A DNA stretch of 33,683 nt, taken from IMG/VR virus record IMGVR_UViG_3300042522_001973, positions 1 to 33,683 of that record, one strand, 5' to 3'. A program made the translations under genes and the position numbers. Shown here piece by piece: positions 2,546-33,683 of this stretch (its first letter is position 1; every line of letters starts with the position of its first letter). The notes under the pieces are model-generated. The model was given only the letters and a program-made list of their open reading frames with translations. It made no database searches and was not told where the DNA came from. This DNA comes from a virus.

Positions 2546-2782
2546 ATGGCAATTTTAGTTAATCCGAATAATGTCAAGGTTATTTCTCAAAATGGGGAAG
2601 TTACTTTAGCCTTGCAAATAGATTTAAATATAAATTTAAATTGTGGAGGCGTTGTCAATCAAGGTACAGTCGGAATGTCTAATTCTGGACCTGCACCTAT
2701 TAAGAAAACTGACGCTGAGGATGAAGCGGCTTGGTTAGTGCCCGATTTTAACTCTAAGGAAAAGATTAAGTTTGGCAAATGA
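2546..2782 (+). CDS. Small hypothetical protein (78 aa)
   Basis: 78 residues starting M-A-I-L-V-N-P-N-N-V-K-V. A hydrophobic, beta-like N-terminal half (V-T-L-A-L-Q-I-D-L-N-I-N-L-N) is followed by an acidic C-terminus. An AGAGGAG motif lies about 17 bases upstream, further than usual, with an AT-rich TATATATAAAG stretch between it and the ATG that could instead be a promoter element. The gene precedes the actin-like ATPase, and the two stop/start regions nearly meet. It might be a partner of the ATPase, but nothing in the sequence proves this. Confidence 0.55.
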   Translation: MAILVNPNNVKVISQNGEVTLALQIDLNINLNCGGVVNQGTVGMSNSGPAPIKKTDAEDEAAWLVPDFNSKEKIKFGK

Positions 2783-2829
2783 GAGGCTCATACGTAAACA
2801 ATGTTAATAGTAAACAAAGAGGTAAAAAA

Positions 2830-3843
2830 ATGGCCATCGGAGTAGATGTAGGAACTTATACACTAGTTTCTTGCAAAAGGAACGAATCTAATGACTTAGT
2901 TTTCAAGAAAGAAATTAATGCTTTCTTGGAGCTTCCTCTAGAAAATCGCTTTGTTTTTAACATGATGCGACAGGCAGGCGTACCTCTGATTGAAAGAGAA
3001 AAGCTTGCCTATGCTTTAGGCGAAGCAGCTGTAAATATGGCCTATACCCTTCCTACATTAGAATTAAAGCGTCCCATGAAGGATGGTTGTGTAAATCCAA
3101 AAGAAAGAGATGCTTTCCAAATAATGTCCATTATGCTTCATTCTTTGGTTGAGCCAGTAAGCAGAGACGGAGAAACGCTATATTACTGCGTTCCAGCTAA
3201 TGCAATTAATCAGGAAACAGACGCAGACTACCATCAAAAAGTTGTAGAAAGCATCTTCAAGAGCTATGAATCAGAAACTGGTTACAAAGTTACTCCCAAG
3301 CCAATCAATGAAGCCTTGGCAATTGTTTATGCAGAGCTTGGCGCAAAAGCCTTTACAGGCGTGGGTATCTCTTGTGGCGGTGGTATGGTAAACGTTTGCT
3401 ATGCTATGTATGGCAATCCTATTTTCCAATTCGCTATTGTCAATAGTGGTGACTGGATTGATAGACAGGCTGCAAAAGCTACTGGTGAATCACCAACCTT
3501 TATCAATAAAGAAAAAATGAAGGTAGACTTGAGAAAAGATCCTGAAACTTTAATAGAGAGAGCAATCATCACCCAATATCGCTTGATGATTGAAAAGACT
3601 ATTCAAGGTATCAAGGAAGGGCTGGCTTCTGCTAAGCAAGCTGTTAAATCGGAACATCCTGTAGATTTCGTGGTTGCTGGCGGCACATCGATGGCCACCG
3701 GATTCGTTGATATTTTTGCCGAAACATTAAAACAAGCCAATTTGACAATCAAAGTTGGAGATGTAATTCGTCCCCAAGAGCCACTGTACAGCGTTGCCAA
3801 GGGGTGTTTGATAGCGGCTGAAGCGGCGGATGTATCACAATAG
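2830..3843 (+). CDS. Actin/MreB/ParM-superfamily ATPase
   Basis: 337 residues from ATG 2830. I chose this start over an in-frame upstream ATG (2779) because AGAGG lies just before it and the fold begins at once with the phosphate-1 loop I-G-V-D-V-G-T-Y (3-10). A connect-1-like helix, N-E-A-L-A-I-V-Y-A, is at about 160-168. The phosphate-2 position reads G-V-G-I-S-C-G-G-G-M-V-N (177-188), and the adenosine motif V-V-A-G-G-T-S-M-A-T-G is at 281-291. Actin-like proteins polymerise with ATP to segregate or position DNA or organise cells; phage-coded ones are known. The usual Asp of the phosphate-2 loop (D-x-G-G-G-T) is not evident here and Ser/Cys stand in its place, so hydrolysis may be altered. 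Confidence 0.82.
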   Translation: MAIGVDVGTYTLVSCKRNESNDLVFKKEINAFLELPLENRFVFNMMRQAGVPLIEREKLAYALGEAAVNMAYTLPTLELKRPMKDGCVNPKERDAFQIMSIMLHSLVEPVSRDGETLYYCVPANAINQETDADYHQKVVESIFKSYESETGYKVTPKPINEALAIVYAELGAKAFTGVGISCGGGMVNVCYAMYGNPIFQFAIVNSGDWIDRQAAKATGESPTFINKEKMKVDLRKDPETLIERAIITQYRLMIEKTIQGIKEGLASAKQAVKSEHPVDFVVAGGTSMATGFVDIFAETLKQANLTIKVGDVIRPQEPLYSVAKGCLIAAEAADVSQ

Positions 3844-8915: not shown

Positions 8916-9224
8916 TCAGTTATCAAACTCATCATCATCGCCGTCATCATCGTCATTATCAGAATCCAAATCATCTTCCCAATCGTCTTCATCACTCATG
9001 TCATCATAGTCGGCGTCATCGTCCTCATCATCGTCATCTTCTTCCCATTCTTCACCGTCATCATCATCTTCTTGGTCTTCGCCTTCATAACCATATTCTT
9101 CGGGATCGTCTGTCCATTCATCTTCCCAAGAATCATCTTCTTCGGGGTCTTCGTCATCATAGACGGCCCCACCTACCATGACAACTTCTTCATATCGTTC
9201 ATCAATCATGTCGAAATAATTCAT
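8916..9224 (-). CDS. Hyperacidic Asp/Glu-rich protein
   Basis: 102 residues, of which 61 are Asp or Glu by my count. Only the first ~22 residues (M-N-Y-F-D-M-I-D-E-R-Y-E-E-V-V-M-V-G-G-A-V-Y) look able to fold. RBS GAGGG is present. Such proteins may mimic DNA, buffer cations, chaperone basic proteins or act as acidic head-core components (T4 gp67 is acidic). It lies 33 bases downstream of the metallopeptidase on the same strand and is probably co-transcribed with it. The stop abuts the stop of the rightward gene at 8915 with no spacer. Confidence 0.7.
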   Translation of the reverse strand: MNYFDMIDERYEEVVMVGGAVYDDEDPEEDDSWEDEWTDDPEEYGYEGEDQEDDDDGEEWEEDDDDEDDDADYDDMSDEDDWEDDLDSDNDDDDGDDDEFDN

Positions 9225-9257: not shown

Positions 9258-10955
9258 TTAAGTGTAAGGAACAGGATTTGCACTTGCAGACCCGCAGCCA
9301 TATGGCTGGCTGTAATATCTAGAGCCACCACAACCTGTATTATATTTATTTGTAGAGCAAGTGCTGTATCTAGTGCGACATGGTAAAACTACCTGTTTTT
9401 TAGGCAATTCTTCACATGAACAATTGCCATGACTGCAGCATCCTGTATTATTCTTGCACTTCCAGCATTTACCGAATTCAGGATTGCCGGGAATTAAGCA
9501 ATTGTTAACAAATCCATTGTCGCCACAGCAGGTAATATGTTTTCTGATTAGGTTGTTATCTTCATCTTTGTACCATGGCTGAATTTCATTGTCGCCATAT
9601 AGATCATTGTCTAAGATATAATCTAAAAAGTCTTTTGCGCATTCACATGCAACATTTGGACCAACAGACATCTGGCACACGACACCGTCTTCCATACATA
9701 CCATATCATCTAATGGTATGGTCATATTCAATTCCATAAGTTCGGCCATTTTCTCTGATTGAGCTAAAACATCAGATTCAAATAGAGAAGACACTTTTAT
9801 CTTTCCATGATTTACGACAACATTTACATTATCAAATTTATTTTCTCCCAAGTTGACTTTGTCAAATGGAAATACTGCGTCAGAAACTACACTTTGTGCA
9901 ACAACGACACCGTAGATTTGTCTGTTTTTGAAAATTACTTTCATCAAGTTGGCAATTTGAGGGTCTATTGGCTGAGTAATAGCAATCCATGTAGCCGCAA
10001 AACTTTGAAAGAAATTAGCAGCACTTGGAGCTTTTCTGTTAGCTTCAATATAAGTCTTTAAAAGAAATTCTCTTGCTTTAGCCAAGGCATCTTTATTGCT
10101 ACCGTAATGGTTATAGACAGCCACTAGAATATCATAAAAGGCACCTGTCATTACACGGCTAAAACTATGCACTTCTGAGGACAACTGATTATCAGGAGCA
10201 TTTTTAGGCAACTTTGCAGGGTTGACATAAACAAAACTATTAACTGCTTTTCTCAAAGCACCCGGAATGCCTAGCTCTGCACCAAACTGTTCAGCTAAAC
10301 CTTCTACCAAATTACTCTTCTTTAGGTCGCCTCCGGTTTGTTTCAAAATATAATCCACCAAAATTGGTTGTGCCAAACTGCTAAAGATGCTAATGCAGTC
10401 GCCAAAAGATTCATGAAATGCCCATATTTCAGTATTGGCCATATTGAAATATTCTGGCCTCATGGCATCCAACAAAGCATGGCCCAATTCATGACTGACT
10501 ATGTCGGCGGAAAGACAAGTAAATACTTTCTTACCGCTTTTACCATTGAAATAAAAGAATTTTAAACCTTGACGGTCGTAATAAGCATTTGGCATATCTC
10601 CAGCCAAAGGGTCAACATTTAAGTTTTTAACCAAAGCCCATTTGTCTATATTAGCTGTTCTGTTAATTGCGTTAATGCTATGACACATGACTGCATAGAT
10701 ATTGGCAGCTTGTCCTTGCGGTCTATCAAAAGGACCACCCGCATTCATGTAGTGTTTAACACTGAATGGCAGTTTGTAAGTTACCGGATTAACAGCCAAC
10801 CCCATCAAATCTGGAGTAGATGGATCGTTCAAATAATACTTGATTTCCACTTTTTTGCTAGCGTCTAAACTTACATCAGACAAAGCCTCAAATTGTGACT
10901 TGTCAAAAAATTTAGAAAATAAACTTTTTACGCTGTTATAAACTTTAGTGAACAT
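9258..10955 (-). CDS. Zinc metallopeptidase (gluzincin, M4-like) with Cys-rich tail
   Basis: 565 residues from ATG 10955, chosen because GGGGGAC lies just upstream. The zinc site is H155-E-L-G-H159, followed 23 residues later by E182 in A-F-H-E-S-F-G-D, the HExxH...E arrangement of thermolysin-like gluzincins. Nearby V-H-S-F-S-R-V-M-T-G-A-F-Y-D also resembles the second half of that fold. No signal peptide is evident. The last ~130 residues are crowded with cysteines (C-W-K-C, G-C-C-S-H-G-N-C-S-C, T-G-C-G-G) and lie outside the normal peptidase domain, perhaps binding metal or forming disulfides. It could cleave virion or host proteins. The hyperacidic protein follows in the same unit. Confidence 0.8.
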   Translation of the reverse strand: MFTKVYNSVKSLFSKFFDKSQFEALSDVSLDASKKVEIKYYLNDPSTPDLMGLAVNPVTYKLPFSVKHYMNAGGPFDRPQGQAANIYAVMCHSINAINRTANIDKWALVKNLNVDPLAGDMPNAYYDRQGLKFFYFNGKSGKKVFTCLSADIVSHELGHALLDAMRPEYFNMANTEIWAFHESFGDCISIFSSLAQPILVDYILKQTGGDLKKSNLVEGLAEQFGAELGIPGALRKAVNSFVYVNPAKLPKNAPDNQLSSEVHSFSRVMTGAFYDILVAVYNHYGSNKDALAKAREFLLKTYIEANRKAPSAANFFQSFAATWIAITQPIDPQIANLMKVIFKNRQIYGVVVAQSVVSDAVFPFDKVNLGENKFDNVNVVVNHGKIKVSSLFESDVLAQSEKMAELMELNMTIPLDDMVCMEDGVVCQMSVGPNVACECAKDFLDYILDNDLYGDNEIQPWYKDEDNNLIRKHITCCGDNGFVNNCLIPGNPEFGKCWKCKNNTGCCSHGNCSCEELPKKQVVLPCRTRYSTCSTNKYNTGCGGSRYYSQPYGCGSASANPVPYT

Positions 10956-11009
10956 AAAAGTCCCCCTTTTATAATATTTATTCTCGTGAGCAAAATAAAA
11001 AGGCAATTC
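10956..11009. promoter_or_regulatory. Divergent promoter region
   Basis: 54 bp between divergent starts. The leftward strand reads AATAAATATTATAAAAGGGGG before the peptidase, combining AATAAATA (one base from the T4 late box TATAAATA) with TATAA and a strong Shine-Dalgarno. The rightward strand has TATAATATTTATTC and AAAAAGG before ATG 11010. Confidence 0.4.
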
Positions 11010-11525: not shown

Positions 11526-12368
11526 TTAAGGAGGGCTTATTAAATCGCCACTTTGTAGCGTATAGGGAGTTTCAAGTTTTGCACACAATGTTGTGCCACT
11601 ATACAGATAATATGTTTTCTTTGCTAAATCGCCAACAGAGGCACCGGCATAATACTTTGTTTCTTGTGTAATTTGTCCAGAAGTATTATAAACAGTGTTG
11701 AAGAAGAAATATGCATCATTAGAACCACGAAGTAGCTGCCAATCAGCCAGAGGGGCATTTGGGTCCATGCCCTGCCATTGAATTAATTGAGCTTCATAAG
11801 CGTTTGTTCCGGGGTCCAAAAGAATAAGACGATCAGGCCCCAAAGTAGGATATTGGAACCTTTCCTGCATATCCCATCTTTCATAATAGGTGGGCAACTG
11901 CCTAATAGGACTATTTCTGTTATACTGCAATACTGTTTCAGCACCAGTATTGGTAATATAAGCCCTAATATGACCACCACCAGCATTCTTGGTGTATTTA
12001 ATCAATACCTTCTGAGGAGCAAAAGGAAAGTTTCTAGCACTAAAAAGACTAGCTTGAAACATGCCTGAGAAAATTGAATTTGTATTTAAACTGTTTACAA
12101 CTTCCAAGGCAGTAACTGCCGTCATGTCTGCGCCAGTAATAGCTATATTTAAAGGACTATAACCCAAAAGACTTGGGTCATAGGCATACATCAAAGTCAG
12201 CACATTATTCCCGGGAGCAGATAAATCATAAGGGCCAACCTGATGATTTATCATGTATTCAGGACTGTTTACATTCGCAGGAACGTTCCAAGTCGTTTGA
12301 TACTGCCTGTCAGAGCCGAAAATAGTAGGACGAAATTCGAAATTAAATACATTCTGGAAAAATGGCAT
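11526..12368 (-). CDS. Probable virion structural protein (280 aa)
   Basis: 280 residues with RBS AGAGG. It is rich in Asn, Tyr, Thr, Pro and Gly and very low in Lys, with beta-type segments (V-L-I-K-Y-T-K-N-A-G-G-G-H-I-R-A-Y-I-T) and a C-terminal Y-Y-L-Y-S-G-T-T-L-C-A-K-L-E-T strand. No enzyme motif is seen. Composition and its place next to the head module point to a tail, neck or head-surface component. It follows the ferritin-like gene by 12 bases and would share its transcript. The identity of the particle part is unknown. Confidence 0.55.
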   Translation of the reverse strand: MPFFQNVFNFEFRPTIFGSDRQYQTTWNVPANVNSPEYMINHQVGPYDLSAPGNNVLTLMYAYDPSLLGYSPLNIAITGADMTAVTALEVVNSLNTNSIFSGMFQASLFSARNFPFAPQKVLIKYTKNAGGGHIRAYITNTGAETVLQYNRNSPIRQLPTYYERWDMQERFQYPTLGPDRLILLDPGTNAYEAQLIQWQGMDPNAPLADWQLLRGSNDAYFFFNTVYNTSGQITQETKYYAGASVGDLAKKTYYLYSGTTLCAKLETPYTLQSGDLISPP

Positions 12369-12380
12369 GACAACCTCTAA

Positions 12381-12842
12381 TTATTTGAAATTTTTAAGTA
12401 TCATTCTATAGTTATCCACATCCTCTCGGCTTTTTTTGATTTGCTCTTCATAAAAGATTTCCATCCATCTTCTTTCTGGCTCCTCAAGTAAACCAAGGTT
12501 GTCCGAAATCCTCTTGGCGTAGTTTAATACAACATCTTGTTCCATTTTCAAGGCAAACTCTAACAATTCCTTCAAATCATAACTAACAATATACGGATAA
12601 TTAGTTACAGTTTCTTCAGCTTGTGTTAAATCCACACCAATTCCCAGCAAAGCATTTTGAAATTCTAAAACATGCTGCATTTCTCCAAGAGCTTCTTTTT
12701 CAAACAACTCTTTATATTCTTCTCGATGAGGACCACTTACCGTAGAAGCTGCCGTCAAATAGAAAAGGAGATGTTTTCTTTCATTTTTCAAATCACCAAG
12801 CATCATGTTTGCAAACAACGCATAATCAGAATTTTTTAACAT
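12381..12842 (-). CDS. Ferritin-like four-helix (bacterioferritin/Dps-type) protein
   Basis: 153 residues, RBS GGGGGA. Four helices carry the spaced acid/His pattern of ferritin-like di-iron proteins: E21 (K-N-E-R-K-H-L-L-F-Y), E54-M-Q-H57 (G-E-M-Q-H-V-L-E-F), E101 (K-M-E-Q-D-V-V-L-N-Y) and E133 (F-Y-E-E-Q-I-K-K-S). The fourth helix lacks the His of the second E-x-x-H; Lys136 stands there, so the metal site may be changed or lost. Ferritins store iron, and Dps-type forms protect DNA from oxidation. Spacing and length fit the family. It is divergent from the terminase and heads a unit with a virion-type gene, so a role in the particle or in the infected cell is equally possible. Confidence 0.72.
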   Translation of the reverse strand: MLKNSDYALFANMMLGDLKNERKHLLFYLTAASTVSGPHREEYKELFEKEALGEMQHVLEFQNALLGIGVDLTQAEETVTNYPYIVSYDLKELLEFALKMEQDVVLNYAKRISDNLGLLEEPERRWMEIFYEEQIKKSREDVDNYRMILKNFK

Positions 12843-12895
12843 TTTTCAGTCCCCCTTATATCTATTATAGTAGAAGTTCCAACAAGAATTGAACC
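12843..12895. promoter_or_regulatory. Divergent promoter region, ferritin-like and terminase
   Basis: 53 bp between divergent starts. CTATAATA is present on the leftward strand (12863-12870), 20 bases upstream of that ATG, with GGGGGA as RBS. The box sits inside CTATTATAG, so the other strand also reads TATTATA. The rightward terminase start has only a weak AAGAA site. Confidence 0.45.
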
Positions 12896-14677
12896 ATGAG
12901 CGTCTGGAAAAATAAGTATAAAACCATCAGAGAATATTATTATAAAACTTACGATCAGGAGTTTTATCACTTCGATGATTTGCAACTTGCTATTAATCCA
13001 GATGAAACAATTGAAGATATAGAACAATATTCCGTAGAAAAACAAACCGTTGAAGTTGAAAAATGCGTCAATAGTTTTTCATACTTTTGCCAAAAATATG
13101 TAAGAATTTTACATCCGACAAAAGGACTTGTTCCTTTTATTATGTACAAATATCAGGCTAGAAGTATTGAGTATTACAGAAAACACAGATTTAATATCAT
13201 ATCTAAATTCCGACAGGGAGGACTAACAACTGTTACGCTTCTTTATGGTCTCTGGAAGTGTATGTTTGAACTAGACCAGCAAATCATGGCACTTTCCAAG
13301 ACTGATAGAGAAGCAGTAGGCATTGGTATGATTATCGACAGAGCAGTCGAACATATGCCAACATGGATAAAGCCAAAAAAAGATGGCAAATGGAATGACC
13401 ATCTTAAGCAATTTCCTGATACTGGCGGCGCTTTACAGTTTTATTCCCCAGAGGCCGCCCGTGGTAAGTCGGTTACATTTCTTATTATTGACGAAGCAGC
13501 GTTCATTCCAGATATGGATAATCACTGGAAAGCTATGTGGCCGGTGCTGAGCACAGGTGGAAGCTGCGTTCTGGTCTCAACGGTTAATGGCTTGGGCAAC
13601 TGGTATGAAGAAACATATACTCACGCCAAAGAAGGCAAAAATATGTTCCACGTAATCGACCTTGATTACTGGGAACATCCTGATTATTGCCCCAAAACTA
13701 ACCCTAATTGGGAAAAAGAACAAAGAAGCCAATTGGGAGAAAAAGGTTTTCTGCAGGAAGTTTTAAGAAGCTTTCTGGGCTCTGGTGAAACCTATATTCC
13801 ATCTGATAAACTGACAATCCTAGATCAGCAAACTCGAAAAACATCGCCAATCAAAAGGCTTTTTCCGCATTTTATAAACAAAGACGCACAAGATGAAGAA
13901 GGTTCTTTTGAAAAAGGAGCCCTCTGGGTCTGGCAAGAGCCTAAAGACGGTGCAGAATACATACTAGGAGTAGATTGCGCCGAAGGAATTGGAGCAAATG
14001 GCGACAACAGTTGCGTCCAAGTTATAAACTCAAACACATTAGAACAAGCAGCCGAATTTTATAGCAATCAAATATCACCACATGATTTTTCCCATATTGT
14101 CCATGAATTAGCATCGGCATATAACACCGGACTTATAATCGTTGAAGACATGTCATCAGGAGGAATTGTTCTAGACATGTTAGTACATGAATTTAGTTAC
14201 GAAAATTTATTTTATAGCGGCAAATCAGGTAAGTCAGCAAAAGCCGGTATCAAAATGAGCATTAACATTCGTCCCATAGTTCTCCAAGGCCTTCAATCTA
14301 GAATACTAAATAGCACCCTCCACATTAAAAGTAAAAGACTAGTTACTGAAATGAAAACTTTTGAGTTTAATGTCACATCCAAAAAAGCTGAAGCCGCCAA
14401 AGGAAAACATGACGATGCAATCATGTCTATAGCACTCGCCTTATACGCTAGAGACCAAAGTGTAAGAGACTTGCCACTTGGCTCCCCAATGATTGAATCA
14501 TCTAATAGAGCACAAACAAATCTAGCAGACATTAGGTCAGAACTCAGAAAAGGACTCAGAGAATCAGTACTAGACAAAATTACAAAAAAAGAAAAAACAC
14601 TCGAAGACCTTGAAAATGAAAATTTATTAAGAACTTATAGAAAACAAAATGCATTAATAAAAGATTTCGGATGGTAA
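12896..14677 (+). CDS. terL: Terminase large subunit (T4 gp17-like)
   Basis: 593 residues. The enzyme powers DNA packaging through the portal and cuts the concatemer. The ATPase half has K-F-R-Q-G-G-L-T-T (104-112) at the Walker A position. The usual G-K-[ST] Lys is absent and a Lys sits at the front, as in lambda gpA-type 'switched' P-loops. Walker B F-L-I-I-D-E is at 195-200 and the coupling motif V-S-T-V-N-G at 227-232. The RNase H-like nuclease half has D360 (L-G-V-D-C-A-E-G), E417/D418 (I-I-V-E-D-M-S-S-G) and D506/D507 (G-K-H-D-D-A-I-M-S). Length matches T4 gp17 (about 610). No small subunit is recognisable nearby. The start lacks a strong RBS. Confidence 0.93.
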   Translation: MSVWKNKYKTIREYYYKTYDQEFYHFDDLQLAINPDETIEDIEQYSVEKQTVEVEKCVNSFSYFCQKYVRILHPTKGLVPFIMYKYQARSIEYYRKHRFNIISKFRQGGLTTVTLLYGLWKCMFELDQQIMALSKTDREAVGIGMIIDRAVEHMPTWIKPKKDGKWNDHLKQFPDTGGALQFYSPEAARGKSVTFLIIDEAAFIPDMDNHWKAMWPVLSTGGSCVLVSTVNGLGNWYEETYTHAKEGKNMFHVIDLDYWEHPDYCPKTNPNWEKEQRSQLGEKGFLQEVLRSFLGSGETYIPSDKLTILDQQTRKTSPIKRLFPHFINKDAQDEEGSFEKGALWVWQEPKDGAEYILGVDCAEGIGANGDNSCVQVINSNTLEQAAEFYSNQISPHDFSHIVHELASAYNTGLIIVEDMSSGGIVLDMLVHEFSYENLFYSGKSGKSAKAGIKMSINIRPIVLQGLQSRILNSTLHIKSKRLVTEMKTFEFNVTSKKAEAAKGKHDDAIMSIALALYARDQSVRDLPLGSPMIESSNRAQTNLADIRSELRKGLRESVLDKITKKEKTLEDLENENLLRTYRKQNALIKDFGW

Positions 14678-16349: not shown

Positions 16350-18908
16350 ATGGCCACACCAATTTGGGCAGACTTTTTCAAAACGTTCGACTTCGCTTTC
16401 GCCAGAGATCCTGTCTCTAGGTCAATAGACCCAAAAGACTTGGTCGGCGCAGGCGTAGCACAGCCAGATGCTATTCCCACGCTAAACCCAGATGGAAGCT
16501 TCTGGAGCAATACAGACAGTCGCCTAATTAGACTAAGAGAAACTAACGATTTTATCGACCTGTCTACCGTAAGCAATAGACAATCCCGCTACAAAGAATA
16601 TGAAAGATTAAGGACAGTTCCAGAAATCGAATGCGCTCTAAGCGTCTTTAGCGACGAAGCTTGTTTAGCTGGCCACACCTTGATAAGCACCCCTTTCGGC
16701 ATGTTTCCCATCGAAAAACTCGAAGAAAAATATAAAAATGAAAAGTTTTTAGTTTATTGCTATGATTTTAAGAAAAAAGATTATGCGTTAGGTTGGGCTC
16801 ATAGTCCTAGAAAAACCAAAACCGCTGAAACAGTTCATGTTGTTCTAGACCACGGAAAAGAAATCGAATGCACTCCTGATCACCGAATACTTATGCGTGA
16901 TGGAACTTGGAAGTGCGCTGGCGATATCAAAGAAGGCGACCTAATTATGCCTTTCTATAGAATGCCAGTAAATCAACACCTCACAGATTTACCCACAAAA
17001 CAATTCCCAAGAATATTCACATTCGGAAAAGGCTGGATTCATGAAAGACACTTTGTCGATGATTGGAGATTAGGCAAAAGTGAACCCAAATTAGATAAAA
17101 TTGCATATTACGGTAGAATGCTTGGTCAAGATCTAAATATGAATCAAATAGCTCAACAAGCCGGATGTGACTGGAAAACTGTAAAAAATCGTCTCAAAGC
17201 CGAAGGATTTTCAGTTGATGAACTAAGATGGTTAGGAAAATACCATAAAGATCATAGAAGAGTACTTAATGTACATAAAGGAAAAATAAAAGATGTTTAT
17301 GACTTAACAGTCGAAGAACATCATAATTTTGCCACAGATTGCGGTATTGTTCATAACTGTCAAAAAGATAGTCACGGCAACGTCATTCAAATTAATTGCA
17401 ATAATGAAGATGTAAAAGATGAATTAGAATTCCTTTTTTTACACAGAAGTATGATTAATCTTAATCGCAGAGTATGGAGCGATTTCAAAAGCCTCTTGCT
17501 CTACGGCGATCTTTTCTACGAATTAGTCATAGATTTGGACAACCCAAAAGAAGGCGTCATGAAAATAACACGCCTTCCCCCAGAATCCATGTATAGAATT
17601 GAAACTACCAAAGGTAGAGTCGTAGAATTCCAACAATCCAAGGAAGGTCCAGATTATCAAAGCTTGACAAAAGCTCCAGTAGTTCACGCTACAGATCAAG
17701 AAATCGCCATGGCAACAGCCATACGCTTCAGTCCTGAACAAGTAGTACATGCACGCTTGGGAGACGACAGAAGAACCTTTTATCCATACGGAGTTTCTAT
17801 CGTAGAACCAACAAGAGGTCCTGCCAATCAACTAAGACTCATGGAAGACGCCATGTTGGTCTACCGCCTCTCCAGAAGCCCCGAACGTAGAGTTTTTTAT
17901 ATCGATGTGGGACAACTACCACCATTTAAAGCCGAAGCATTCATCGAAAGACTTAAAGACCAATTCAGAAAGAAAAAGGTCAGCCATAGCCAAGGAAGTT
18001 TCGGATCAGCAACCCCTAATAGCGTAGATGAAAGATATCATGCGCCAGCAGTCGATGAAGATTTCTGGCTGCCTATTAGACCTAATTCCAATACCAAAAT
18101 TGAAACTCTACCGGGTGCACAAAACCTTGGCGAAATTGATGACGCAATCTATTTTAGAAACCGATTGTTTACAGCATTGCAGTTTCCTAAAAACTACATG
18201 AACACAGAAGATCCTAACCAAACAAAAATCACACTTTCAGCACAAGACGTAAGAGTTGCAAGATTAGTAGAACGCTTCCAAGCACCATATGAAGATATTC
18301 TATGGGAAATAGCTGATAGACATCTCAAATTAAGAGGCTTCCCCCTAGACACATATGATGATTTAAGAATCAAAATGACACAACCATCCGAATGGAGGGA
18401 ATTGAGCCGACAAGAAGTTACAGCCGCTCGTATACAAAATGCCACCAGCATTAAAGGCAGCACTCTAATGTCTGATTATGATATTCTCACAGAATGGCTT
18501 GGATATTCTGAAGAAAAATCCAAGATATTCATGGCAAGAATGAAAATGCAGAAAATTGAAGATGCAAAACTACAGGTGCTTGCACAAAATCCTGCCCTCC
18601 TTGGTGTTGGATTGCCTTCTGATGAAAGTAATAATGAACAAAAACTGGGTACTACTCCAGAAGGTCCTAACCAAGAAATCAGCCCAGAAGGACTTAATCC
18701 TCCAGAACAACAGGGCGGTGGCGAAGCAGAAATGCTAGCTGGTGGCGGCGAACAAGCTGCACAACAACCCGCTGCCGGACAAGAAAATAACATCCAAGGC
18801 ACGCCACTTCGCACGCCTACAGAAAAAGACTTGATTAAATACGATATTGAAATCCAAAACTACGCTAGCGAAGAAGACTATGAACCAATAGATTACTCTG
18901 ACGCTTAG
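16350..18908 (+). CDS. Portal protein (T4 gp20-like) interrupted by an intein
   Basis: 852 residues as translated; about 620 after removing a 232-residue intein (residues 105-336), compared with 524 for T4 gp20. Portal rings form the DNA entry/exit pore at one capsid vertex and dock the terminase. Portal-type features include P-E-I-E-C-A-L-S-V-F-S-D-E-A before the intein, the long central segment with Y-P-Y-G-V-S-I-V-E-P-T-R-G-P-A-N-Q-L-R-L-style clamp sequence, and the R-N-R-L-F-T-A-L-Q-F-P-K stretch. The ~100-residue C-terminal tail is Gln/Gly/Pro-rich and probably disordered. RBS AGAGG. The insertion splits a conserved early helix (D-E-A/C-Q), so splicing should be needed for head assembly. 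Confidence 0.88.
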   Translation: MATPIWADFFKTFDFAFARDPVSRSIDPKDLVGAGVAQPDAIPTLNPDGSFWSNTDSRLIRLRETNDFIDLSTVSNRQSRYKEYERLRTVPEIECALSVFSDEACLAGHTLISTPFGMFPIEKLEEKYKNEKFLVYCYDFKKKDYALGWAHSPRKTKTAETVHVVLDHGKEIECTPDHRILMRDGTWKCAGDIKEGDLIMPFYRMPVNQHLTDLPTKQFPRIFTFGKGWIHERHFVDDWRLGKSEPKLDKIAYYGRMLGQDLNMNQIAQQAGCDWKTVKNRLKAEGFSVDELRWLGKYHKDHRRVLNVHKGKIKDVYDLTVEEHHNFATDCGIVHNCQKDSHGNVIQINCNNEDVKDELEFLFLHRSMINLNRRVWSDFKSLLLYGDLFYELVIDLDNPKEGVMKITRLPPESMYRIETTKGRVVEFQQSKEGPDYQSLTKAPVVHATDQEIAMATAIRFSPEQVVHARLGDDRRTFYPYGVSIVEPTRGPANQLRLMEDAMLVYRLSRSPERRVFYIDVGQLPPFKAEAFIERLKDQFRKKKVSHSQGSFGSATPNSVDERYHAPAVDEDFWLPIRPNSNTKIETLPGAQNLGEIDDAIYFRNRLFTALQFPKNYMNTEDPNQTKITLSAQDVRVARLVERFQAPYEDILWEIADRHLKLRGFPLDTYDDLRIKMTQPSEWRELSRQEVTAARIQNATSIKGSTLMSDYDILTEWLGYSEEKSKIFMARMKMQKIEDAKLQVLAQNPALLGVGLPSDESNNEQKLGTTPEGPNQEISPEGLNPPEQQGGGEAEMLAGGGEQAAQQPAAGQENNIQGTPLRTPTEKDLIKYDIEIQNYASEEDYEPIDYSDA
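16662..17357 (+). mobile_element. Intein in the portal gene, homing domain reduced
   Basis: In-frame protein insertion of 232 residues. It begins C105-L-A-G-H-T-L-I-S-T (block A), has T-P-D-H-R-I-L (block B, 175-181) and ends V-Y-D-L-T-V-E-E-H-H-N-F ... G-I-V-H-N336 followed by C337 (blocks F and G). These residues support standard class 1 splicing with Cys1, block-B His, penultimate His, terminal Asn and Cys+1. The middle (about 205-305) lacks a full LAGLIDADG or HNH site. It holds G-W-I-H-E-R-H-F-V-D-D-W-R-L-G-K, like the start of an HNH homing domain, and a helix-turn-helix (M-N-Q-I-A-Q-Q-A-G-C-D-W-K-T-V-K-N-R-L). It therefore looks like a splicing-competent element whose nuclease has decayed. 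Confidence 0.9.
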
Positions 18909-26504: not shown

Positions 26505-26600
26505 GGCTGGTAGGCATATGGTAGTCGTTTTAGCTCTTTCCTGACTCGGATGCCTTTTAGCAAGATGGTGAAGATTAAGAGCGACAGCCCTTGCACAGCC
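26505..26600 (+). ncRNA. Candidate structured RNA with kissing-loop fold
   Basis: Convergent gap between two genes, higher in GC than its surroundings by eye. Compatible helices read by hand on the + strand: GGCTG 26505-26509/CAGCC 26596-26600 closing the region; AGGCAT 26512-26517/ATGCCT 26550-26555, with AGTC/GACT inside it; and GCAAG 26560-26564/CTTGC 26590-26594. The two hairpin loops also share a 6-bp complement (GCTCTT 26533-26538, AAGAGC 26577-26582), giving a three-way junction with kissing loops. No known RNA family is recognised, and short helices can arise by chance, so this is a candidate only. The strand is assumed. Confidence 0.4.
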
Positions 26601-27427
26601 TATTCATTTTCATTTATAAGTTTATTAGTATTTTCTATGCCTCTGATGAACATAAAAAAGTAAAAAACATTGAATGTAACGCTATAGAGTTTATCGACGT
26701 AGAGTAGTGTTGATGTTATAGCTCCTACTGTTGGTTGGGTGTAGACTAAAATTAGCATGGTAGCTAGGTGCATGATTATGGACAGGGAGTCATTGAAGAA
26801 GAAGTTAGCGGCATCTAGGTTTGATTTTCTGACATAGTTTTGGCTTAGATTTTGAAGGTAATTTTTGTATTCTAGATTTTCCATGAGTGAGTGGTTTATA
26901 TTTTCTTTTTCTGTTTGTATATTTAGGTCAATTTTTTGTGTTTTGTAGCTGTATATTTTATTGACTGTAATCATTCCGATGAATAATATTGTGGCTAGGA
27001 TGCCGATTTTATGATCTGTGAGGTAGAGCATTGTGAGGGCGGTAGTAGCGCCTATAAAGGCTTGTATTATTTGAGGTAGGCTGAATTCGAAGAAGTCTGA
27101 ATAGTAACCTACAAGTTGGTATCGTGCTGCTATTTTGGCTGGTATTATATTTTTATTTCTAAGAATTTGTACAGCTTTTATGGCTTTATCGCAGAATATT
27201 TTCATGAAGACTTTGGTATCATATCTTTTTAGGAAGAAGCCGATTAGAAGGGCTGTTATTTCGGCTGTTAGTAGTATTAACAGATAAAAATTATCTTTAA
27301 TTAGTAGTCCATCAATAGTTTTACCTAGCAGGTATGGTATTAGAGAAAACAAGCCATACTGGATTATCAGCATGGCATATATGAAGATTATTTGGAGTTT
27401 ATTTTCTTTAAGTATTTCCCTGATCAT
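26600..27427 (-). CDS. ABC exporter type I membrane domain, no ATPase domain
   Basis: 275 residues from ATG 27427 (AAAGG at good distance); ATG 27433 is an alternative. About six membrane-spanning segments: I-I-F-I-Y-A-M-L-I-I-Q-Y-G-L-F-S-L-I-P-style first pair, L-L-I-L-L-T-A-E-I-T-A-L-L-I-G-F-F, a central pair near 125-165, and a last pair around A-T-M-L-I-L-V. P-Y-L-L-G-K-T-I-D-G-L near 35-45 is typical of ABC type I exporter domains. No Walker A, LSGGQ or Walker B follows; the protein simply stops. It would need a separate or host ATPase. A tiny membrane protein overlaps its start. The substrate is unknown. Confidence 0.68.
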   Translation of the reverse strand: MIREILKENKLQIIFIYAMLIIQYGLFSLIPYLLGKTIDGLLIKDNFYLLILLTAEITALLIGFFLKRYDTKVFMKIFCDKAIKAVQILRNKNIIPAKIAARYQLVGYYSDFFEFSLPQIIQAFIGATTALTMLYLTDHKIGILATILFIGMITVNKIYSYKTQKIDLNIQTEKENINHSLMENLEYKNYLQNLSQNYVRKSNLDAANFFFNDSLSIIMHLATMLILVYTQPTVGAITSTLLYVDKLYSVTFNVFYFFMFIRGIENTNKLINENE

Positions 27428-27551
27428 CTTCATCCTTTAGGTCTTCATCAGGAAGCAAGTTGGGGTTAGGTGAGTCTTGCATTTCGAATGCTTTAATAAT
27501 TCCATAAAGTAGAATGGATAACAGGCAGAGTAGTGTGATTGTTTCAAGCAT
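27408..27551 (-). CDS. Small single-span membrane protein (47 aa)
   Basis: 47 residues: an N-terminal hydrophobic span (I-T-L-L-C-L-L-S-I-L-L-Y-G-I-I) followed by an acidic tail (P-D-E-D-L-K-D-E-D-D). ATG at 27549-27551 directly follows the stop (27552-27554) of the upstream gene on the same strand, and its 3' end overlaps the start of the ABC membrane gene by about 20 bases, so three genes look coupled. Its shape recalls small phage membrane proteins (holin accessory or transporter subunit). It was found by reading the minus strand between the flanking genes. Confidence 0.55.
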   Translation of the reverse strand: MLETITLLCLLSILLYGIIKAFEMQDSPNPNLLPDEDLKDEDDQGNT

Positions 27552-31289: not shown

Positions 31290-31717
31290 ATTTTTATTGT
31301 CAAAAAGTGCAAACAGAAAATTGAATCTTCTGATCTGTAACCGCCTGTAATCATATTGAGTTGTAGGATGTTATTAGTATTAAGATTGCGCAATACAACA
31401 TCTACATAAATCATGCTTTTTTGTACAGATTTTATATTTTCTAGAATAGAATCTACTTCTTCGTCTGTGGTGGTTTTTTTACAGATAGTGATTTTGCAGA
31501 TGCCGGAATCTAGACTCCAGCCTTTTTGTTTGACTTGTGCGTATGAGTTATATGAGAAGTCAATTGTTTGATTATTTTTTTTGATTTCTACGGATTCAAC
31601 GACAAGTCCGTATAGATAGTTGGTTTTGTGCCAAAATTCTATTCTTTTATGGTGGGTTCGCTCATAAATACCTTTGGAATGTGGCCAATCTAGCCTCAAA
31701 GTTGGGTAAGTTTTCAT
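31286..31717 (-). CDS. Hypothetical protein
   Basis: 143 residues, RBS AAGGTGA. Beta-rich (Y-G-L-V-V-E-S-V-E-I-K-K-N-N) with a central helix (V-D-S-I-L-E-N-I-K-S-V) and the ending C-L-H-F-L-T-I-K-I. No catalytic motif or family is recognised. It is divergent from the C39-like peptidase with only 20 bp between the starts, in which the two Shine-Dalgarno sites sit on opposite strands side by side. Confidence 0.55.
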   Translation of the reverse strand: MKTYPTLRLDWPHSKGIYERTHHKRIEFWHKTNYLYGLVVESVEIKKNNQTIDFSYNSYAQVKQKGWSLDSGICKITICKKTTTDEEVDSILENIKSVQKSMIYVDVVLRNLNTNNILQLNMITGGYRSEDSIFCLHFLTIKI

Positions 31718-31737
31718 ATCATCACCTTGGGGGATCA

Positions 31738-32304
31738 GTGCGTAAGATTTATCGAAAACGACACAAGCCCGAATCGATAAAGATACATCTTCCGGAGGTT
31801 CAGCAAAAAACGCATTTTAGTTGTGCAGCAGCGGTAGTGCATTCGATTTGTAGTTATTGGGGATTAGGTTTGCCGTCTCATTATGATTATTTTCCCTATC
31901 TAGAAACTGATGAGAGTTATGGGACATTACCCAGCAAAATAGCGAAGTATTTAACATCTGTTGGTCTCACTGCGTGCATTAAGTATAATATGTCAATTAA
32001 AACTTTGTGTCAAGAGATTAACAAGGGAAGTCCTGTGATTCTTGCGTTGCAGGCTTGGGGTAATTTCAAGCATTACGACAAATTTGGTAGTGGGCATTAT
32101 TTAGTTGCGATTGGGTACGATGAGAAAAACATTTATTTCGAAGATCCTTGGTTGAATTGCAGCAGGGGTTTCATACCGAAAAATGAACTATTGAAGCGTT
32201 GGCATGACATGGATTACTTAGGTGTTACGCATGAGAAGATGGGGATTATAGTTTCCCACAAGAAAATTCCTGTTTATAGCAAGAGTGCTAGAAAGATTTG
32301 TTAA
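31738..32304 (+). CDS. C39-like cysteine peptidase
   Basis: 188 residues from GTG 31738 (GGGGGAT 5 bases before it); a longer frame from GTG 31681 would overlap the divergent gene. Papain-fold features of C39-type peptidases: Q23 and C29 (Q-Q-K-T-H-F-S-C-A-A-A-V-V), H120 (G-S-G-H-Y-L-V-A-I-G-Y) and D136 (I-Y-F-E-D-P-W). C39 enzymes usually cleave leader peptides after double-Gly sites during export by peptidase-containing ABC transporters; this one stands alone. No signal peptide or membrane span. It lies just past the three Cys/Gly proteins, but no canonical G-G leader cut is evident in them. Role unknown: virion protein processing, host target, or peptide maturation. Confidence 0.72.
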   Translation: MRKIYRKRHKPESIKIHLPEVQQKTHFSCAAAVVHSICSYWGLGLPSHYDYFPYLETDESYGTLPSKIAKYLTSVGLTACIKYNMSIKTLCQEINKGSPVILALQAWGNFKHYDKFGSGHYLVAIGYDEKNIYFEDPWLNCSRGFIPKNELLKRWHDMDYLGVTHEKMGIIVSHKKIPVYSKSARKIC

Positions 32305-32996: not shown

Positions 32997-33683
32997 TTAA
33001 ATTTTCCAACGAAGTTTTCTGAGAGGGAATCCTTCTACGGCGCTGTAACAAAAGGAATCATCTTGTTTGAGCATTTTATCTATTACCGACCAGTGAGCAT
33101 AGAAACCGGCTGGGCTTGGTTCGCCGGGTCCAATATTGGAATTTCCCATGTATGTTCCCCAAGAGTTTAGGATAAATCCATGTTCTTCTTTGTTTATAGT
33201 AGCGTAGCCAATAATAGCCATTTGGTGTGCCCAAGAACCAGATGGTTTGCATACTCCATTTGCATCTCTTGAAGTTGTGAAACCTTGGTTGCTAGCAACT
33301 GATATACCATAGCCTTGAACCAATGATTTTTTTGCACTATTCCAATCTGAAATTTGCGTGGTGTATTTTACAGGATGTTCTTTTACTAGTGGTTCTAAAT
33401 CATTAGGAACACCTGCAGCGCCCCATTGGCGGCACAATGATTCAGAGTATTTTTCTAGATTATATTTTCCATTTAGAAAAGTTCCTCTGTTAAGAATTCC
33501 ATATTTTCTAACGAAATCAGCACCCCAAGCGCCGATACTTCCGTCGCCTCGGCCTAATTGTCCTTTGCCTATTTCAACTCTGCTTCCTCCATAAACTATT
33601 TCTTGAACTAGGGGTTTGAATTCTTCTGCTTGTCCTTGAGCGATTTCTGCGCACATTGTATATTCTATGGCTGAACAGCAGCC
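32997..33683 (-). CDS. Papain-like (C1) cysteine peptidase, N-terminus beyond right edge
   Basis: At least 228 residues; the frame is open to the window end. Papain family features near the C-terminus: G-S-W-A-H-Q-M-A-I-I-G-Y (catalytic His) and H-G-F-I-L-N-S-W-G-T (catalytic Asn in N-S-W-G). The first visible residues G-C-C-S-A-I may include the catalytic Cys, but the start lies outside. Any signal or propeptide is also outside. Phage papain-like proteins are uncommon; a role in host lysis, virion maturation or attack on host protein is possible. It is the third peptidase fold in the window besides the prohead protease. Confidence 0.78.
   Translation of the reverse strand, partial: GCCSAIEYTMCAEIAQGQAEEFKPLVQEIVYGGSRVEIGKGQLGRGDGSIGAWGADFVRKYGILNRGTFLNGKYNLEKYSESLCRQWGAAGVPNDLEPLVKEHPVKYTTQISDWNSAKKSLVQGYGISVASNQGFTTSRDANGVCKPSGSWAHQMAIIGYATINKEEHGFILNSWGTYMGNSNIGPGEPSPAGFYAHWSVIDKMLKQDDSFCYSAVEGFPLRKLRWKI

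Follow-up and report, generated by a model that had tools for sequence, protein, structure and literature searches.

Why should a ferritin-like gene stand beside the terminase of a T4-like head module, and what would its product do there? The question is raised by a 33.7-kb virus contig of IMG/VR (record IMGVR_UViG_3300042522_001973; all 33,683 nucleotides were analyzed and are referred to here as the window), which belongs to an uncultivated large bacterial virus. In phages, ferritin-like genes are known from scattered groups, where they are described as accessory. A preliminary description of this DNA, made from its letters only, recognized a four-helix ferritin-like protein and considered that it could protect packaged DNA from oxidation, scavenge iron or represent a structural reuse of the fold.

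The Gene and Its Surroundings

The open reading frame was correctly placed at 12381–12842; its strand, left unstated in the preliminary description, is minus. The frame begins with ATG and encodes 153 residues followed by a stop codon. Several stops interrupt the opposite (plus) strand within this span. The position next to the terminase is likewise borne out: the gene for the T4-like terminase large subunit (593 aa; 12896–14677, plus strand) is divergent from the ferritin gene, and 53 nt (12843–12895) lie between the two start codons. The T4-like head module around the ferritin gene comprises this terminase, a Gp20-type portal and a major head protein of phrog_138; the portal gene (16350–18908, plus strand) contains an intein (PF14890, residues 122–336).

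Directly downstream of the ferritin gene, on the same strand and after a gap of 12 nt, is a gene for a 280-aa protein (11526–12368, minus strand). In its structural model (pLDDT 88.5) residues 36–152 resemble flagellin/FliD, phage tail-sheath and crAss001 vertex domains (Z 5–10), and a BFVD search with this protein returned nothing below E 0.001; the model suggests, weakly, that it is probably a virion protein. The same cluster includes a metallopeptidase-like gene with an HExxH motif (9258–10961, minus strand; the frame is open upstream to 11081 and the start is probably near 10955), whose conserved product has a Cys-rich C-terminus and gave no Pfam match. It is followed by a very acidic, D/E-rich ORF of 102 aa (8916–9224), and genes of both kinds recur in relatives.

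On its ferritin side the intergenic region carries a Shine-Dalgarno-like stretch (GGGGGA) and a TATAAT-like box, the latter also found upstream of the ferritin gene in several relatives. A late-promoter search showed that TATAAATA is absent from the window. The stretch TATAA..GGGGGACT occurs just before both the ferritin and the metallopeptidase starts (12843–12895 and about 10956–10985) and could be a late promoter and ribosome-binding site common to the two genes. Elsewhere this phage contig encodes a C39-like peptidase (31681–32304, plus strand), a papain-like peptidase (32997–33656, minus strand) and an ABC-transporter membrane region (26600–27433, minus strand).

Ferritin Identity and Fold

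Judged by sequence and predicted structure, the product of this gene is a genuine ferritin-superfamily protein, as had been proposed. It matches the Pfam Ferritin family (PF00210) with E 1.7e-9 and 38.2 bits (curated cut-off, 24.5), and the same family is matched by 18/18 homologues tested (best E 2.4e-20); weak matches to PF12902 and Rubrerythrin were also obtained, and a PHROGs search gave no strong match. The AlphaFold (AF2) model (pLDDT 94) is an antiparallel four-helix bundle with helices at residues 5–34, 40–67, 90–118, and 123–150. Comparison of this model with bacterioferritin (Bfr) and Dps, suggested earlier as a check, indicates a ferritin-type bundle. VIA-align gave Z 19.8 for 2qqy (1.7 Å over 139 residues), 19.3 for mini-bacterioferritin (mini-Bfr or mBfr) and about 18–19 for Bfr and Dps; these alignments (Z 18–20) cover 136–145 residues and score well above chance matches of helical bundles, for which Z can be as high as about 13. 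The family profile matches 2qqy with 63 bits (E 2.5e-16) together with many ferritins and bacterioferritins, and every top match of the family, whether by sequence or by fold, is a ferritin, a mini-Bfr, or a Dps.

The chain stops three residues past helix D, and in 50 of 60 members no more than six residues lie beyond position 150. Because the protein ends there, the fifth (E) helix of the 24-mer ferritin and bacterioferritin cages is missing, a trait common to the phage ferritin, mini-Bfr and the Dps 12-mers. With a pI of 4.9, a charge near −9 and a single Lys/Arg among its first 15 residues, the protein is acidic and has no basic N-terminal tail, which makes DNA binding or coating in the manner of Dps unlikely.

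The Proposed Metal Site

Conservation was counted over 60 distinct viral homologues with identity down to about 37%. Invariant in 60/60 are E21, H24, Y28, E54, H57, E101, N107, Y108, R111, Q134, and S138, and D141 is found in 59/60. The ligands named in the preliminary description thus hold for E21, E54, H57, and E101, which are conserved in all homologues, but not for E133 and the terminal Lys. Position 133 is variable (D in 21, K in 15, G in 8, and E in 7 of 60), K136 and K137 vary too, and the structural register differs, which rules out an E133xxK136 motif as the fourth ligand.

Provided that helix D has no gap, S138 and D141 would occupy the positions of the Bfr helix-D ExxH (E127/H130; E124/H127 in mBfr). 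Model residues 151 and 153 are end-points of the structural alignments, where they pair with residue 137 of mBfr and residue 142 of E. coli Bfr, respectively, and alignments by sequence to 2qqy and mBfr agree with this register. A four-residue gap in the C–D turn makes sequence-only alignments ambiguous, and one of them misplaces TmFtn and the cellular relative L113. A TmFtn-based alignment that makes Q134 the equivalent of Bfr Glu127 was rejected, S138 being preferred because the end-points for mini-Bfr, 2qqy and E. coli Bfr give one common offset.

The family therefore has S138xxD141 where Bfr and mini-Bfr have the helix-D ExxH; Ser stands in place of the bridging Glu and Asp in place of the His, a change that might alter or abolish catalysis. 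Helix A has gained H24, at a position that is Ala in 2qqy, mBfr and L113, and Ser in TmFtn. The candidate ligands E21, H24, E54, H57, E101, and D141 may form a rearranged set of four carboxylates and two histidines, in which H24 and D141 would bind metal. The residue after the helix-B Glu is Met (M55) in the window protein and in 50/60 homologues; in the other 10/60, among them the close relative L002, it is Leu. The residue of Bfr at this place is the haem-ligating Met52. Both second-sphere tyrosines, Tyr28 and Tyr108, are kept and match mini-Bfr tyrosines that hydrogen-bond Fe ligands (PMC13168243).

Comparison with Known Ferritins

The closest protein by both profile and structure is 2qqy, a diiron-carboxylate protein of ferritin type from Bacillus anthracis that carries the label "Sigma B operon". 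It resembles the phage ferritin in having four helices and no fifth, the E, ExxH, E pattern and equivalents of Tyr108 and Arg111, but its residue at the H24 position is Ala, its helix D reads ETNH where the phage family has SxxD, and its gene is cellular. E. coli Bfr and FtnA-type proteins have the same fold and the same ligands in helices A, B, and C. The FtnA ligands, presumably E17, E50, H53, E94, and an E130-type residue with Tyr24, are matched by E21, E54, H57, E101, and Y28. D141 also resembles the carboxylate that FtnA has as E130, so that position 130 would be Asp and position 127 Ser instead of Gln in the phage protein. Bfr and FtnA have the fifth helix, form 24-mers and presumably lack H24.

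The ferroxidase ligands of Dps lie at the subunit interface and not inside the bundle, and the intra-bundle E/ExxH/E set of the phage ferritin argues against Dps; a reading of the protein as Dps was rejected as a poor fit with the intra-bundle ExxH and the acidic surface. DpsL proteins presumably carry a conserved cysteine pair near the site, and the window protein has no cysteine.

The mini-bacterioferritin of Ca. Methanoperedens (9qq4/9qq5), a 12-mer with an intra-bundle diiron site, is similar in its short subunit without a fifth helix, the intra-bundle position of its site (a candidate site in the phage protein) and both second-sphere tyrosines; it differs in the canonical E124/H127 of helix D, in binding Fe-coproporphyrin and in being archaeal (PMC13168243). 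Phages are known to encode Dps and related ferritin-superfamily enzymes, for instance Lactobacillus phages (PMC6669764), in which the genes lie near replication genes, and Gratiaviridae (PMC8008677). These and the BFVD proteins are other families, and tblastn searches of the catalogued phage records with members of the present family found no similarity at E 0.01 or 0.001. Among the BFVD entries, three proteins of uncultured phages annotated as "prohead protease" (A0A6J7XDU5, A0A6J7WPK9, and A0A6J7WIS1) contain a fold of Dps/ferritin type, which connects such folds with head genes in a further case.

Distribution and Evolution

Relatives of the ferritin occur in at least 126 viral contigs of IMG/VR, some of them 250–530 kb long. 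A tblastn search of 50,697 phage records (INPHARED) with three divergent family members as queries gave no match, and the open-access papers searched contain no description of this family. Scans of a genome collection, which were pattern-based and reach close relatives only, gave one match, L031, in a Neisseriaceae MAG. Within this reach a cellular origin was rejected, as L031 proved to be a phage contig that shares the gene order. In 299 genomes of the phylum of this MAG the only other match at E ≤ 1e-10 was a canonical cellular ferritin (46 bits).

A survey starting from the terminase fetched 80 loci, of which 46 had at least 9 kb upstream and were evaluable, some contigs being near-duplicates; the ferritin is present in 43 of these 46 same-lineage loci. 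The statement that T4-like head modules do not normally include ferritin-like genes is accordingly true of catalogued phages (0 matches in 50,697 records) but not of this uncultivated T4-like lineage, in which ferritin is a near-core gene. In 51 of the 57 loci with a ferritin gene, no more than 1.35 kb separates this divergent gene from the terminase, and in 41 the 280-aa gene follows on the same strand. A second set of members has an actin-like gene in the vicinity, and in L083 the gene immediately upstream is PhoH; a homologous actin-like protein is encoded in the window at 2779–3843 (plus strand; Pfam Volactin, 5e-67). The 595-kb phage LR756511 (L024; terminase 48% identical) has no ferritin and carries genes of 185 and 105 aa in the interval (L024 6862–7733); genes resembling this pair come after the ferritin in L031 (8448–9289).

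The ferritin co-diverges with the terminase and is under strong purifying selection. Identities of the two proteins are correlated (Mantel r 0.875; 42 dereplicated contigs, 0/2000 permutations), and dN/dS is 0.02–0.05 in the closest pairs, L012/L014 and L021/L023, with dS below 0.2, most other ferritin pairs being saturated at synonymous sites. In the tree the viral ferritins fall on one side of a 100/100 branch from three cellular sequences, a thin outgroup. New here is that a family confined to viruses, with an altered signature of the site, is near-core and keeps its place next to the terminase.

Proposed Function

With moderate confidence, we regard the protein as a small diiron-carboxylate ferritin, a near-core phage gene product with a putative role in iron oxidation (ferroxidase) or sequestration, made together with the virion genes. 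Each four-helix bundle would bind two Fe(II) through E21, E54, H57, E101, D141, and perhaps H24, and oxidize them with O2 or H2O2, and a small cage, probably of 12 subunits, would take up the ferric product. Made along with the virion genes, and so presumably late, the ferritin would keep free iron and peroxide low during replication and packaging of large genomes. Action in the cell rather than in the particle is favored.

The ferritin could instead form part of the particle or be enclosed in it, at the head, neck, or tail, and would there carry iron or shield packaged DNA, but we consider this rather unlikely. Such a location would account for the fixed place between the terminase and virion genes, and fits the near-core presence, the same-strand neighbor with its resemblance to tail-sheath and vertex domains (41/57 loci) and the Dps-like folds of "prohead protease" proteins in other uncultured phages. 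However, gene position does not prove packaging, the protein is acidic without a basic tail, and the second set of members is found near the actin-like gene instead (beside PhoH in L083). It is doubtful that both parts of a stronger proposal apply, namely that in this lineage of large T4-like phages a ferritin whose diiron site is rearranged (ExxH in helix A, SxxD in helix D) has become a regular member of the block of virion genes, and that its iron-loaded cage travels in or on the particle.

A diiron oxygenase or oxidase of rubrerythrin or hydroxylase type, with an organic substrate and using the altered site with H24, is improbable: the rearranged ligand set, the constancy of H24, S138 and (59/60) D141 and the weak PF12902 and Rubrerythrin matches would suit it, but the best sequence and fold matches point to ferritins, mini-Bfr, and Dps throughout, and no substrate-related gene was recognized among the neighbors. 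Metal-free structural reuse of the bundle, for which the loss of the canonical helix-D ExxH might speak, is disfavored by the invariant ligand set and very improbable, as E21, E54, H57, and E101 (60/60) and D141 (59/60) are retained in proteins down to about 37% identity and buried charged residues would not persist without a role.

Significance

Here a ferritin is near-core, co-inherited with the terminase and distinguished by a family-specific metal-site signature. This makes iron handling in phage growth or in the particle directly testable, and the family bears on whether phage particles carry iron. As a virus-only family present in nearly all relatives, it indicates that iron handling is probably a standard part of the growth of these viruses.
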